This document shows positions 4,073 to 20,196 of a DNA stretch of 40,783 nucleotides, one piece after another. Positions within the stretch are counted from its first letter, which is position 1, and each line of letters begins with the position of its first letter. The stretch comes from Hellea sp. GTDB lineage: Bacteria > Pseudomonadota > Alphaproteobacteria > Caulobacterales > Maricaulaceae. Below the pieces are notes generated by a model. That model was not told the DNA's origin and did not search any database. It saw nothing but the letters and a program-made list of their open reading frames with translations. The DNA lies in the NCBI GenBank assembly GCA_020629195.1, contig JAHDDT010000004.1:1-40783 (forward strand), given 5' to 3'. The position numbers and the translations under genes are program-made.

Positions 4073-5482
4073 ATGATTGAGGGTTTCATCTCGCGGCGAC
4101 TTTCTGGCAAGTTATTGCTTATGACAATTGGCTTCGTCATGTTAGCGGAGCTTGTAATTTTCGTGCCGTCTGCGGCCACTTTTCGTCAGGATTGGCTTAA
4201 TGACCGGGCCCAACAAGCTGGATTGCTAGCGCAAGCGCTTACTGGAGTACCTGATTATGAAGCTAGCGAAATTCTGACAGACCAGTTTATGCAGGATACT
4301 GACGTTATCATGATGTCAGCTAAGCGCGACGGTATGAGTGAATTTATGCTGGGCAGTCCGCCTGACGGTGCCAAGCTTGAAATGATAGATTTACGCGAGA
4401 CGAGGCGCCTCCCACGTTATAGAGATGCCTTCCGTACCTTTTTCGGAAATGCTGATGGATGTTTAAGAGTTTTGGCGGCGTCGCCAGTAACAGGACAAGA
4501 TGCACTTGAATTATTGATTCCGAAAAGCAAACTTAAATGGGCCATGCGAGATTACGCGAAGCGTATTGCTGTGCTCTCTCTGGCGATTGCTGTGATTACG
4601 GGATTGCTAATTTACCTCGCTATGCTGTTTATGATTATTAGGCCCATTGAGAAATTGGCGGCAGGCCTTGCTGATTTTCGAGAGGACCCAGAAAAAAGAC
4701 GCAGTAATTTGCCGCCATCAAGCCGCAAGGATGAGATTGGGCAGTTGCAACGTGAGTTTTACGATATGAAACAAGGGGTCCGCGCAAGCTTCAAACAGCG
4801 CGAACGCCTCGCGACTTTGGGTATGGCAGTCGCGAAAATAAATCATGACCTGCGAAACGTCTTGGCATCGGCCTCACTTGTCTCTGACAGATTAGCGAGT
4901 GATCCTGAAGAGCGCATTTCAAAAATGGGAGCCCGTCTCACGCGGTCAATTGACCGGGGTATAAAGCTTACAAGTGAAGTGCTAAATTTCAGCCTAAGCG
5001 GGCAGGATGAAGCTGAACTGGAAGTCGTTCGTATTTCATTGCTTGTTGGAGAAGCCGCAGGGGATACTTTGGGAAGCTTTGGAACCGGAGCGCGGCGTAT
5101 TAGTTTTACAAATAAAATCCCGAGCGAGCTGATCGTAACAGCGGATAAAGATCACACTTACCGCATTTTTCATAACCTCTTCAGAAATGCGGCCCAAGCA
5201 ATGGCGAAGATGCCAGAGGATAATGTGACTCGAAATCTCTCAGTTGAAGCCATCCCTGCGGGAGACCATATCTCAATTTTGGTCAAAGACACGGGCCCTG
5301 GCCTTCCTGATAAGGCTAAAGATAATTTGTTTAAAGCCTTCGCATCGGCCTCAGGCCGAGGGAGCACTGGTTTGGGCCTGACCATCTCACAAGACTTAGC
5401 CCGAGAGCAGGGCGGCGATATTGTTTTGGAAAGCACATCAAAAGATGGCACTGTCTTTGCTGTGAGTTTGCAAAAAGCTTAA
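4073..5482 (+). CDS. HAMP-domain sensor histidine kinase, orphan
   Basis: A 469-residue membrane sensor kinase. TM helices lie at about 14-32 and 165-189, flanking a periplasmic sensor region of roughly 130 residues. A HAMP linker follows (about 189-245), then a HisKA-type box with phospho-acceptor His258 (INHDLRNVLASAS), an N box (HNLFRNAAQAM), a G1 box (DTGPGLP) and a G2 box (GSTGLGLTIS). No response regulator is encoded beside it, so its partner must be elsewhere. It is the last gene of the redox/membrane operon and ends 4 bases before the convergent folD stop. The signal sensed is unknown; a link to envelope or redox state is inference from context. The ribosome site is weak. Confidence 0.9.
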   Translation: MIEGFISRRLSGKLLLMTIGFVMLAELVIFVPSAATFRQDWLNDRAQQAGLLAQALTGVPDYEASEILTDQFMQDTDVIMMSAKRDGMSEFMLGSPPDGAKLEMIDLRETRRLPRYRDAFRTFFGNADGCLRVLAASPVTGQDALELLIPKSKLKWAMRDYAKRIAVLSLAIAVITGLLIYLAMLFMIIRPIEKLAAGLADFREDPEKRRSNLPPSSRKDEIGQLQREFYDMKQGVRASFKQRERLATLGMAVAKINHDLRNVLASASLVSDRLASDPEERISKMGARLTRSIDRGIKLTSEVLNFSLSGQDEAELEVVRISLLVGEAAGDTLGSFGTGARRISFTNKIPSELIVTADKDHTYRIFHNLFRNAAQAMAKMPEDNVTRNLSVEAIPAGDHISILVKDTGPGLPDKAKDNLFKAFASASGRGSTGLGLTISQDLAREQGGDIVLESTSKDGTVFAVSLQKA

Positions 5483-16031: not shown

Positions 16032-17396
16032 ATGGAAACCTCAACGACATCTGACCAGCGCGATCCTGATATTGATGAGAATAAAATTGCTAAAGCTCTG
16101 CTCGATGAAGAGACAGGCGCTTTAGATTTTCTTATCGGAGATATGCACCCCGCAGACTTCTCTGATCAGTTTGAAGAACTCACAACGGAACAGCGCGAAA
16201 ACCTAATCGACCGTGCTCCAGAACTGATTACGGGTGACGTCCTTACCGAGCTTGAGGATGATGTTGTTGAAGATATTCTTCCGCTTATCTCGTCTGATCA
16301 ATTAGCCGATGCCATTACAGATCTGGATAATGACGAGGCGACTCAGATTATCGAAGAGATGGAGGATACGCAGCGCGAGGAGGTTATGGAGGCCCTTGCA
16401 CCTGCTGATCGGGCGTCACTAAAAGCTGCTCTTGAATTTGATGATGAGACGATTGGCCGTCTCATGCAGCGCGAATTTGTAGCGGCTCCACCTTTTTGGA
16501 CGGTTGGCGATACCATTGATCATATGCGCTCTACATCTGCAGATTTACCTGAAGTATTTTATAATATTTATATTGTCGATACGGCTTTCAAACCTATCGG
16601 TTATATTCCCATATCCAATGTCATGCGCCAAATGCGCGATGTGCCTCTTGAAGATATAATGGATGGTAATCTGGTCACTATTGAGCAATCCATGGATCAA
16701 GAGGACGCCGCCTATTTATTCGAGAAGTATAATTTGATTTCCGCGCCCGTTATCGATGCCTCTGGGCGCCTAACAGGCATGATGACTGTTGATGATATTA
16801 TCGAAATTATCCAAGACGAGAACAAAGAAGACATGCTGGCTTTGGCGGGGGTTAAAGAATCTGGCCTTACGGATACAGCGCTTGATATTGTTCGTGCGCG
16901 CGCGCCATGGCTTTTCATTAATTTAATGACGGCTATTTTGGCGTCTATTGTTATTGCCCAATTTGATTACGCGATTGCGGAGATTGTAGCTCTGGCTGTG
17001 CTAATGCCGATAGTCGCCTCTATGGGGGGGAATGCGGGTACACAGGCTCTGACGGTGGCTGTGCGTGACTTGACAGAAAAAGATCTAAATCAACGTACCT
17101 CATGGCGCTCCGTTCGCAGGGAAGGATATGCAGCGGCGCTGATAGGCGTAATCTTTGCCATAGCCTTGGCGTTGATCGCTTATATCTGGTTTCGAGATGC
17201 GCAATTGGCATTCGTCGCCTTTGTGGCCATGATCATAAACCACATTTTTGCTGGTCTTGCGGGTATATTGGTGCCGCTGGGCCTTAAGAGGTTTGGCGCT
17301 GACCCCGCTGTCGCCTCTTCCGTTTTTGTGACAACCGTGACGGATATAGTCGGGTTTTTTGCCTTTCTCGGATTTGCGGTTCTTATCTTGCTCTAA
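16032..17396 (+). CDS. mgtE: Magnesium transporter MgtE
   Basis: A 454-residue Mg2+ channel. The cytoplasmic N domain (about residues 15-125, MgtE_N helical repeats such as LTTEQRENLIDRAPE) is followed by two CBS domains (about 130-255). A connecting helix and five TM helices follow from about residue 290, with the MGGNAGTQALTV hallmark. The TVTDIVGFF segment in the last helix carries the conserved aspartate of the ion path. AAAGGAG lies 7 bases before the ATG. The 5' leader (85 bases to the divergent gene) is too short for an M-box riboswitch. The DUF885 gene follows after 25 bases. Confidence 0.96.
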   Translation: METSTTSDQRDPDIDENKIAKALLDEETGALDFLIGDMHPADFSDQFEELTTEQRENLIDRAPELITGDVLTELEDDVVEDILPLISSDQLADAITDLDNDEATQIIEEMEDTQREEVMEALAPADRASLKAALEFDDETIGRLMQREFVAAPPFWTVGDTIDHMRSTSADLPEVFYNIYIVDTAFKPIGYIPISNVMRQMRDVPLEDIMDGNLVTIEQSMDQEDAAYLFEKYNLISAPVIDASGRLTGMMTVDDIIEIIQDENKEDMLALAGVKESGLTDTALDIVRARAPWLFINLMTAILASIVIAQFDYAIAEIVALAVLMPIVASMGGNAGTQALTVAVRDLTEKDLNQRTSWRSVRREGYAAALIGVIFAIALALIAYIWFRDAQLAFVAFVAMIINHIFAGLAGILVPLGLKRFGADPAVASSVFVTTVTDIVGFFAFLGFAVLILL

Positions 17397-17421: not shown

Positions 17422-18732
17422 ATGAAAAAAATTGTTTTTATCTCTGCGCTTTTCCTTGTAGCAGCTTGTAGTCCAACTGAAGTGAAGGCGCCCGCTGAAA
17501 CTGTAGAGACTGAAGCGTATCAATATTCATTAAATCAAGCTGGGGAAGATTTTGTAAAATTGGCTTTGCGTATGGGCGAAGTCGATAGTGATTATGTGGA
17601 CGCTTATAGCGGACCTAAAGAATGGCGAGAGGCTATTAAGGGAACACAAGTCGACACGGATAATCTTGCCAAAGATATTGAGGGGCTTCGCAAAAAAATC
17701 GGGATGTTAGATGTTTCTTCGTCTGAAAATGTGCGCCGTAAAAATCTAATGAAGCTGCTCCGTGCCATGGCGGTGCGTTTGGATGTGGTAACAGGTAAGC
17801 CTGTCTCTTTTGATAAAGAAGTTTCAGATATTTATGACGTGAAGCCGCCGCGTTATAATTTGTCTGAATATGATGCTGTACTGGCCGAACTGGACGCTCT
17901 CGTGCCTGGTGAGGGAAGCGTCGCTGAGCAGGTGAATAATTTTCGTAATAAATTTGCAATTCCCAAAGATAAATTAAAGCCCGTATTTGACCGGGCTATT
18001 GCTGAATGTCGCGCTAGAACATCTGTTTATTTTGATCTTCCCGATCGCGAAAAATTTACTATGGAATTCGTGACGGATAAAAGCTGGTCAGGGTATAATT
18101 ATTACCAAGGTAATTATGAAAGCCTTATACAAATCAATACTGACTTTCCTATCACCATTGATCGTGCAGTTGATTTAGGGTGTCATGAGGGATATCCAGG
18201 TCATCATGTTTGGAACCTGTTTATTGAACGTGAACTTGTCGGGAAACGGGGGTGGATTGAGTATAGCGTGAATCCACTTTTTGGCCCCTTTGGTCCTCTT
18301 GCAGAAGGCTCTGGTAATTTTGGGATAGAACTTGCTTTTCCAGGGGACGAAAAAATGGCTTTTGAGAAACAGGTTTTATTCCCTATGGCAGGTCTTGATA
18401 CATCAGAAGCAGAGCTGTTTGAACGTGTTTTGGCTTTGGAAAGCAAGTTATCACATGCCACAAATGATATCGCGCGCCGCTACTTGGACGGAGAACTCAC
18501 CAAAGATGAGGCCGTGCCTCTTATCCAAAAATATTATCTGCAAAGCCGTGAAAAGTCTGAACAACGCTTGCGTTTTATTGAAAAGTATCGCGGCTATGTG
18601 ATCAATTATAATATCGGGCAAGATATCGTGCGCAGCTACGTGCAAGACATTGGTGATACGCCTGAGGCGCAATGGACAGCTTTTCGCGACATGCTTACAA
18701 TCCCACTTACTCCGGGCGATATGCAGGAGTAA
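17422..18732 (+). CDS. DUF885 lipoprotein, putative zinc metallopeptidase
   Basis: A 436-residue protein with a lipoprotein signal (FLVAAC, Cys16). DUF885 proteins carry an HExxxxHH-like motif, here CHEGYPGHHVWN near residue 255, and a downstream glutamate region (LAEGSGNFGIELAF) typical of gluzincin-like active sites. They are considered probable zinc peptidases, but substrates are mostly unknown. It is somewhat shorter than the usual 550-600 residues of the family. It starts 25 bases after mgtE and is probably co-transcribed. It is likely to act in the periplasm or at the outer membrane. Confidence 0.85.
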   Translation: MKKIVFISALFLVAACSPTEVKAPAETVETEAYQYSLNQAGEDFVKLALRMGEVDSDYVDAYSGPKEWREAIKGTQVDTDNLAKDIEGLRKKIGMLDVSSSENVRRKNLMKLLRAMAVRLDVVTGKPVSFDKEVSDIYDVKPPRYNLSEYDAVLAELDALVPGEGSVAEQVNNFRNKFAIPKDKLKPVFDRAIAECRARTSVYFDLPDREKFTMEFVTDKSWSGYNYYQGNYESLIQINTDFPITIDRAVDLGCHEGYPGHHVWNLFIERELVGKRGWIEYSVNPLFGPFGPLAEGSGNFGIELAFPGDEKMAFEKQVLFPMAGLDTSEAELFERVLALESKLSHATNDIARRYLDGELTKDEAVPLIQKYYLQSREKSEQRLRFIEKYRGYVINYNIGQDIVRSYVQDIGDTPEAQWTAFRDMLTIPLTPGDMQE

Positions 18733-18751
18733 TAGTCCAAAATTAAGACCC

Positions 18752-18775
18752 TACTAACCCTGCAATTGGTTAGTA
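18752..18775. promoter_or_regulatory. Inverted repeat upstream of the sigma-54 promoter; candidate activator site
   Basis: TACTAACC, 8 bases (CTGCAATT), then GGTTAGTA form a perfect 8-bp inverted repeat. It lies about 68-91 bases upstream of the predicted sigma-54 start, a normal place for an enhancer-binding protein such as TacA. There is no T-run after it, so a terminator for the DUF885 gene is less likely. The binding protein is inference. Confidence 0.4.
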
Positions 18776-18816
18776 AGGCTTATCCCCATCCGTAAAGATA
18801 TCGCGCTATTCCCTTC

Positions 18817-18832
18817 TGGCGCGAGTTTTGCA
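18817..18832 (+). promoter_or_regulatory. Sigma-54 (-24/-12) promoter for spmX
   Basis: TGGCGCGAGTTTTGCA matches the sigma-54 consensus TGGCACG-R-N3-TTGCW at all fixed positions but one (G for A), with exact GG-to-GC spacing. The predicted start is near 18843, 34 bases before the spmX ATG. In Caulobacter spmX is transcribed by sigma-54 with the activator TacA, so position and identity agree. Confidence 0.75.
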
Positions 18833-18876
18833 CAAATCCATTCCGAAGAACTAACTTTGTAATGGATTGGGACAAA

Positions 18877-20196
18877 ATGGGTCGTCAATTTAATATTTCT
18901 GACATGGGGCTTAAGCTTATCAAGGCTTATGAAGGCTTTCGCCCTGTAGATCGCACACTTGTCTCAGGGCAGCGTGTGGTCGGTTATGGTCACCGCTTGA
19001 TGGATGATAAAGCCGTGATGCTTTCTAAGCCAGAAGCTGAAAAGATTTTAAAAGACGATCTTGCGCCTTTTATTGATATGATTAATGAAAATGTGCATGC
19101 GCCATTGTCTCAGAGTCAGTTTGATGCTTTGGTTTCATTTGCTTATAATATAGGGCCAAAAGCCTTTTTAGAATCCGATACATTAAGAGCTTTAAATAAT
19201 GGCCGTCCTCTAGATGCCGCCAACGGTTTCGATATCTGGCGAAAGTCTGAAATTGAGGGAAAAACTTATGTCGTCGATGCGCTTATGCGCCGCCGTACAG
19301 CTGAGAAAGCGTTGTTCTTGCGGCCTGAAGGCCGCGCATTAAGTGCTCCAACTGTGGATTTGCCTCCCGTAGAAGATGAGACCATTGCGCTTCTCACAAC
19401 AGAAGATGCATTGCCCGTCTTCACAGCCGATGATGCCGCAGGGGTAGTGATAAATGCTCCATACTCAGCAACATCCGCACAAAACCGTCGCCGTGAAGAC
19501 GGCCTGTCGGGGACTATGAGCCTAAGCGAAATTACGGGTGATGCCGAAGTGATAGAAAATGGCCTTTATGAAGAGGATTCACCGTTCATTCCTGACACCT
19601 ATAAAGTTATGGATGATGACAATGAGCCTGAGCAGACTCGCCCATCTCTAATTGCGGCAGAAGATGAAAAACTGAAAGACAGATTAGACGCTTTGATTGA
19701 GGACGTAAAATCTGATCAAAAAGCAGCTGACACAGCAGATTGGCCAGAAAGCTTTATTGATATAGATACCCAAAGCGCGAATAAAGGCGCAAATATCATC
19801 CCGTTTTCAATCGAAAAACAAGATGATATTGTCATTACGCCTGATTTGTTGGTTGACGCCGAGGTGGAGCAGGGGGCTAATGATAGGATCATTATTGAAG
19901 ATCACGCAGCGGATGATGCAATCTTGCAGTCTCGTACAGAAGACAGTGCAAGCCGCTATATTGATTTAAATGCACGTCCCGAAGACAACGTGCCCGTTTC
20001 GACCATACCTTATATGATTATGATGTTTTTGGGTTCAGTTCTTTTTGGGGGCGGCATTGCTTCATGGCTTAAAAACAAAGGTTTGATGTTCGGAGAGTTT
20101 GGCCCGATGCTGATTATGTGCAGTATTTTTATCGGTGCGATGATGTTGGCAGGCGCCTTGTATTATGCTGCGCGTCAAAGCTTTAAGCGTTCATAA
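18877..20196 (+). CDS. spmX: SpmX-like polarity protein: degenerate muramidase domain plus two C-terminal TM helices
   Basis: A 439-residue protein in three parts: a GH24 phage-lysozyme-type domain (about 1-155), a long acidic, low-complexity middle region (about 160-370), and two TM helices at about 376-397 and 407-430. This is the architecture of Caulobacter SpmX, which localises and activates the kinase DivJ at the stalked pole. Of the lysozyme Glu-Asp-Thr triad, Glu19 (AYEGFR) remains. The aligned Asp and Thr positions are Leu28 and Val34 (RTLVSGQRVVGYGH), in line with the reported detoxification of this domain in SpmX. The ATG at 18877 (GGGA 4 bases upstream) is preferred over 18862 and fits SpmX length. 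A sigma-54 promoter precedes it. Confidence 0.87.
   Translation: MGRQFNISDMGLKLIKAYEGFRPVDRTLVSGQRVVGYGHRLMDDKAVMLSKPEAEKILKDDLAPFIDMINENVHAPLSQSQFDALVSFAYNIGPKAFLESDTLRALNNGRPLDAANGFDIWRKSEIEGKTYVVDALMRRRTAEKALFLRPEGRALSAPTVDLPPVEDETIALLTTEDALPVFTADDAAGVVINAPYSATSAQNRRREDGLSGTMSLSEITGDAEVIENGLYEEDSPFIPDTYKVMDDDNEPEQTRPSLIAAEDEKLKDRLDALIEDVKSDQKAADTADWPESFIDIDTQSANKGANIIPFSIEKQDDIVITPDLLVDAEVEQGANDRIIIEDHAADDAILQSRTEDSASRYIDLNARPEDNVPVSTIPYMIMMFLGSVLFGGGIASWLKNKGLMFGEFGPMLIMCSIFIGAMMLAGALYYAARQSFKRS

Follow-up and report, generated by a model that had tools for sequence, protein, structure and literature searches.

A sigma-54 promoter core preceding spmX in a Hellea genome and its conservation in Caulobacterales

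The mapped start of Caulobacter spmX is preceded, at -26, by an RpoN motif (PMC4287350), and the gene is a target of TacA, the C-terminus of which ends in Ala-Gly (PMC7010744). The ShkA-ShpA-TacA relay of this organism is sigma-54-activating (PMC5590869). Its genome encodes four enhancer-binding proteins, NtrC, NtrX, FlbD and TacA, and the GAFTGA sequence is present only in FlbD and TacA (PMC10274813). In H. neptunium, SpmX is required for the localisation of DivJ (PMC7200025). The DNA described here is a stretch of 40,783 nucleotides (the window) from a marine Hellea sp. MAG of 2.18 Mb that is 76.5% complete. The class of promoter found in front of its cell-polarity gene spmX is already known from Caulobacter; what is new is the depth of the conservation, a promoter that outlasts protein similarity, its retention after loss of the flagellum and an exception in one family (f5).

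The promoter core and the spmX gene

The sigma-54 -24/-12 promoter core, TGGCGCGAGTTTTGCA, is located on the forward strand at 18817-18832 and shows one mismatch to TGGCACRNNNNTTGCW (A to G at position 5). The first-pass annotation had counted the same fifteen fitting positions out of sixteen and had described the -24/-12 spacing as exact; the invariant GG (18818-18819) and GC (18830-18831) are indeed canonically spaced. Counting the canonical sigma-54 spacing from the -24 G at 18819 places the predicted transcription start (+1) at 18843 on the forward strand, the position that the annotation had also arrived at. The core is 60 nt from the probable spmX start codon (ATG 18877), and the 5' UTR is predicted to be about 34 nt if both positions are correct. 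Matches with no more than one mismatch number two on the two strands of the 40.8-kb window, with 0.93 expected; the second, at 5446, falls within a histidine-kinase gene. The sequence match alone is therefore unremarkable at the scale of the window and the cross-genome conservation is decisive. Within the 144 bp preceding spmX, the shuffle P value for such a match is 0.0004.

The spmX gene (18877-20196, forward strand, 439 codons) encodes an N-terminal lysozyme-like (GH24) domain, an acidic variable linker and two C-terminal hydrophobic segments, seen in the alignment as a membrane anchor. The start codon was revised by comparison. The first in-frame ATG (18862-18864, forward strand) was rejected: in H. 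balneolensis it is shifted out of frame by an insertion of one nucleotide, and the alignment of relatives begins with the methionine at 18877, which is probably the true start. The N-terminal domain matches the phage-lysozyme family of Pfam (1.2e-27), and the best PDB match of the protein is 6h9d (2.1e-36). On the NCBIfam model NF051871, the protein scores 145 bits against a cut-off of 700. SpmX of the Hyphomonas type (216) and the Brevundimonas type (235) likewise falls below the cut-off, which we therefore regard as too narrow here; the model is calibrated near Caulobacter, and its score was treated as an accessory feature rather than as defining SpmX. In SpmX of Maricaulis/Oceanicaulis-like genomes, the lysozyme consensus is largely gone, with EGF/EGY beside the catalytic Glu position changed to EPF or EAF.

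By gene order, spmX lies in the orthologous position. The magnesium-transporter gene mgtE (16032-17396, forward strand), recognised by a profile match, is a conserved upstream neighbour, separated from spmX by zero or about one gene in nearly all loci that hold mgtE and in all five family groups; the window has the same mgtE-(0 or 1 gene)-spmX order. The gene in between (17422-18732, forward strand) is a 436-aa lipoprotein-like ORF that occurs at this place only in a few Hellea loci. It contains a HEGYPGHH motif, but assignment to DUF885 on this basis is unsupported, with no match in Pfam.

Between this ORF and spmX there is a hairpin with a 12-pair stem (18748-18779; fold z = -3.1), possibly the terminator of the upstream gene. 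No T run follows it on the forward strand, and the terminator scan flags the reverse strand. The palindrome at 18753-18774 was considered as a binding site for TacA and discarded, the RNA hairpin being the better explanation. No shared element that would serve as a TacA-binding site (UAS) was found in the in-group alignment or the pairwise footprints of the spmX upstream regions; in many relatives, the end of mgtE sits just before the promoter. A motif search located a CtrA-box-like sequence, TTAAGACCCTACTAAC, at 18743-18758 on the forward strand, with one mismatch to TTAA-N7-TTAAC. Boxes of this kind occur in 9 of 107 spmX upstream regions, compared with 2.5 in mononucleotide shuffles; three more Hellea loci have a comparable one at about the same distance, and one Algimonas locus has a perfect box. 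The recurrence in Hellea and the Algimonas box would fit a model in which a sigma-70/CtrA promoter, or transcription running through from the upstream gene, accounts for most spmX expression and the sigma-54 site is secondary. We judge this very unlikely: the box shares bases with the hairpin and most relatives lack it, a scan of 18733-18876 found no sigma-70-like promoter, and for read-through the upstream gene exists only in those few Hellea loci and the hairpin stands between it and spmX. Direct control of spmX by CtrA is only a lead.

Conservation of the site and the f5 exception

The first-pass annotation had proposed an alignment of spmX upstream regions. The regions compared include Hellea, Litorimonas, Algimonas, Robiginitomaculum, Euryhalocaulis, Henriciella, Hyphomonas and Aquidulcibacter, together with Caulobacter-type and other f3/f4 genomes and Maricaulis/Oceanicaulis-like genomes. 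We take family f3 to be Caulobacteraceae and f5 to be Parvularculaceae, and several of the genus names are presumptive in the same way. The site was found in four family-level groups, of the Maricaulaceae, Hyphomonadaceae, Caulobacteraceae and Aquidulcibacter types. Of the 112 distinct upstream regions from these groups, 106 carry a relaxed -24/-12 pattern in the corresponding position, compared with 1.4 (maximum 5) in dinucleotide shuffles, the loci being related and hence not independent trials. The median position is 63 nt before the spmX start. With the strict pattern the numbers are 82/103 and 0.5. GG and TGC are built into the relaxed pattern; among the other positions, T stands at position 13 in every one of the 106 sites and C at position 4 in 98 of them. 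Five of the six regions that miss the pattern carry a near or slightly displaced site.

The 16-mer in front of spmX in H. balneolensis is identical to that of the window. Caulobacter-type loci with SpmX above the curated cut-off carry TGGCGCCGACCTTGCG, in agreement with the published RpoN motif of Caulobacter spmX (PMC4287350). In the Maricaulis/Oceanicaulis-like genomes, the sigma-54 site is kept although SpmX itself shows only weak similarity. A match this good would be expected about once in the window, which is what the idea of TGGCGCGAGTTTTGCA as a functionless chance sequence has in its favour; set against the local P value, the position and the conserved loci (106/112 compared with 1.4), that idea is hardly credible, and we regard it as in effect ruled out by the cross-genome comparison. 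Judged by sequence and conservation, 18817-18832 is a genuine sigma-54 switch preceding spmX, and the promoter class proposed in the annotation is supported by its presence across the four groups, which make up most of the order Caulobacterales.

Family f5 behaves differently. No sigma-54 site was found in the nine f5 spmX-like loci examined, which are the SpmX-like best match of each genome; mgtE synteny could be checked, and is present, in two. The f5 genomes possess tacA. In a tree of the lysozyme domain, f5 SpmX clusters with f5 paralogues, so that gain of the site after the f5 split and loss within f5 are both possible. The annotation had called the control route "ancient and kept". Within the four groups this is upheld, and the alignments support the TacA-to-SpmX wiring of Caulobacter as old and strongly kept there; for the age of the whole order it is not, as the site is missing from f5, where the syntenic gene and tacA are both present, and antiquity of the wiring beyond the four groups is tentative.

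RpoN, TacA and other trans factors

The genome was also searched for rpoN and tacA, a check that the annotation had called for, and both genes are present. The rpoN match (1.8e-57) includes the RpoN box, with the ORF reaching ARRTVAKY at the contig end. Five real enhancer-binding proteins are encoded: TacA (L002), a LuxO-like protein (L003), NtrX (L004), a PspF-like protein (L005) and NtrC (L006, partly masked). A GAFTGA-type loop is found in TacA (GSFTGA) and in the LuxO-like protein (GAFTGA). By Pfam, L002 consists of a receiver, a sigma-54 AAA domain and a Fis-type HTH, and it falls in a clade with 100/99 support together with Caulobacter-type TacA, which makes it the TacA orthologue. The Caulobacter-type protein was named by elimination: FlbD passes its cut-off, which leaves one further protein with the loop, and this one terminates in Ala-Gly. 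The Ala-Gly ClpXP signal, an accessory feature, is seen in Caulobacter-, Brevundimonas- and Maricaulis-like members, and the TacA of the window genome ends in TAKSA. TacA is present in 196 of 200 genomes, and in two more it is interrupted, by a frameshift or by a contig break. A complete genome of the UKL13-1 type (f4) is without TacA, its close relatives have it, and its spmX site takes a weaker form, with CTGC instead of TTGC.

H. balneolensis, 99% complete, has neither FliF nor FlbD above cut-off. Its NtrX, NtrC, PspF-like and RtcR-like proteins are without the canonical GAFTGA loop (RtcR reads GAYAGA). This leaves TacA as its only activator with a canonical loop and as the likely activator of spmX, by extension also in the window. 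The nearly complete genome of Litorimonas cladophorae likewise shows no FliF or FlbD above cut-off and has kept TacA. In the MAG, the LuxO-like protein is a second candidate activator; its gene adjoins that of a hybrid kinase (L269) with receiver and HPt domains, and a LuxO-like protein is also encoded in Litorimonas.

It is improbable, in our estimate, that the sigma-54 promoter is real and served by a different enhancer-binding protein, such as this LuxO-like regulator. Its intact loop, its place next to a kinase-REC-HPt gene and the failure to find a TacA-binding site at spmX would fit such an arrangement. However, among the proteins listed for H. balneolensis, where the 16-bp site is identical, there is no LuxO-like one. 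Nearly all genomes of the order have TacA, and nearly all loci of the four groups have the site; LuxO-like and FlbD proteins are patchy by comparison.

The ShkA structure 6qrj is matched by several hybrid kinases, by one of them (L265) along its whole length; the matches are generic and establish no ShkA orthologue, L265 included, and the same holds for ShpA. A 542-aa multi-pass kinase (L267) has DivJ as its best NCBIfam match over nearly the full length, with 281 bits against a cut-off of 1000, and is a candidate DivJ-like kinase. A CckA-like kinase is also encoded in the genome. Of the TacA-SpmX-DivJ route put forward in the annotation, the promoter class, rpoN and tacA are therefore in place, and the DivJ step, represented by this candidate, is tentative.

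In the MAG there are 64 matches to the pattern YGGCNYN5TTGCW (24 in the reversed control), and in H. balneolensis there are 82 (36 in the control). Of the sites common to both, several, on eight contigs of the MAG, directly precede genes, mostly of exported or envelope proteins, one of them BcsB-like, and a DUF1465 gene; these are a candidate TacA/RpoN regulon. Some shared matches fall within genes and are not promoters.

A proposed route to SpmX and its comparison with Caulobacter

Taken together, the data make it highly probable that the promoter at 18817-18832 serves to transcribe spmX under TacA. RpoN-RNA polymerase would sit on the promoter in the closed state, and phosphorylated TacA, a protein of the NtrC family, would open it via ATP hydrolysis. 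Transcription would begin at about 18843, and SpmX would be produced only while TacA is active, presumably in time with the cell cycle. SpmX would then localise DivJ to the pole and activate it there. Three observations weigh against the assignment to TacA: the search for a binding site at spmX came back empty, the MAG, at 76.5% completeness, encodes a second activator with the loop, and the UKL13-1-type genome has the weaker site and no TacA.

A wider scenario is offered tentatively, as a possibility that we hold at somewhat less than even. With the flagellum and FlbD lost, Hellea-type bacteria may have kept sigma-54 as a near-dedicated developmental factor of TacA for spmX and exported envelope proteins; spmX would either have gained sigma-54 control after f5 split off or f5 would have lost the site, and the change of a phage-type lysozyme into a polarity factor may have included its capture by TacA. 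In Maricaulis/Oceanicaulis-like genomes, the 16-bp switch is more recognisable than the SpmX protein itself, an order-wide regulatory fossil. Lineages that keep the switch without FliF or FlbD, and f5 with spmX and tacA and without the switch, are natural experiments, through which it becomes testable when and why SpmX came under TacA control.

The RpoN/TacA-dependent spmX promoter of Caulobacter crescentus and that of Hellea both contain the -24/-12 core, published as GGCNC-N4-CTTGC for the former and reading GGCGC-N4-TTTGC in the latter. In Hellea, T replaces C before TTGC and A replaces G after it. The loci have mgtE as the upstream neighbour in common, and both genomes contain rpoN and tacA; Hellea differs in the extra gene between mgtE and spmX and in the CtrA-box-like sequence and hairpin upstream, and flagellar FliF and FlbD were not found in it. 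Compared with SpmX of Caulobacter, Asticcacaulis and Hyphomonas, the protein of the window is alike in the GH24 domain, the two C-terminal hydrophobic segments and the synteny, and differs by its score under the NCBIfam SpmX cut-off. With respect to the ShkA-ShpA-TacA phosphorelay, TacA of Hellea ends in Ser-Ala in place of the Ala-Gly degradation signal of the Caulobacter protein; the receiver, AAA and Fis domains and the GSFTGA loop are shared.
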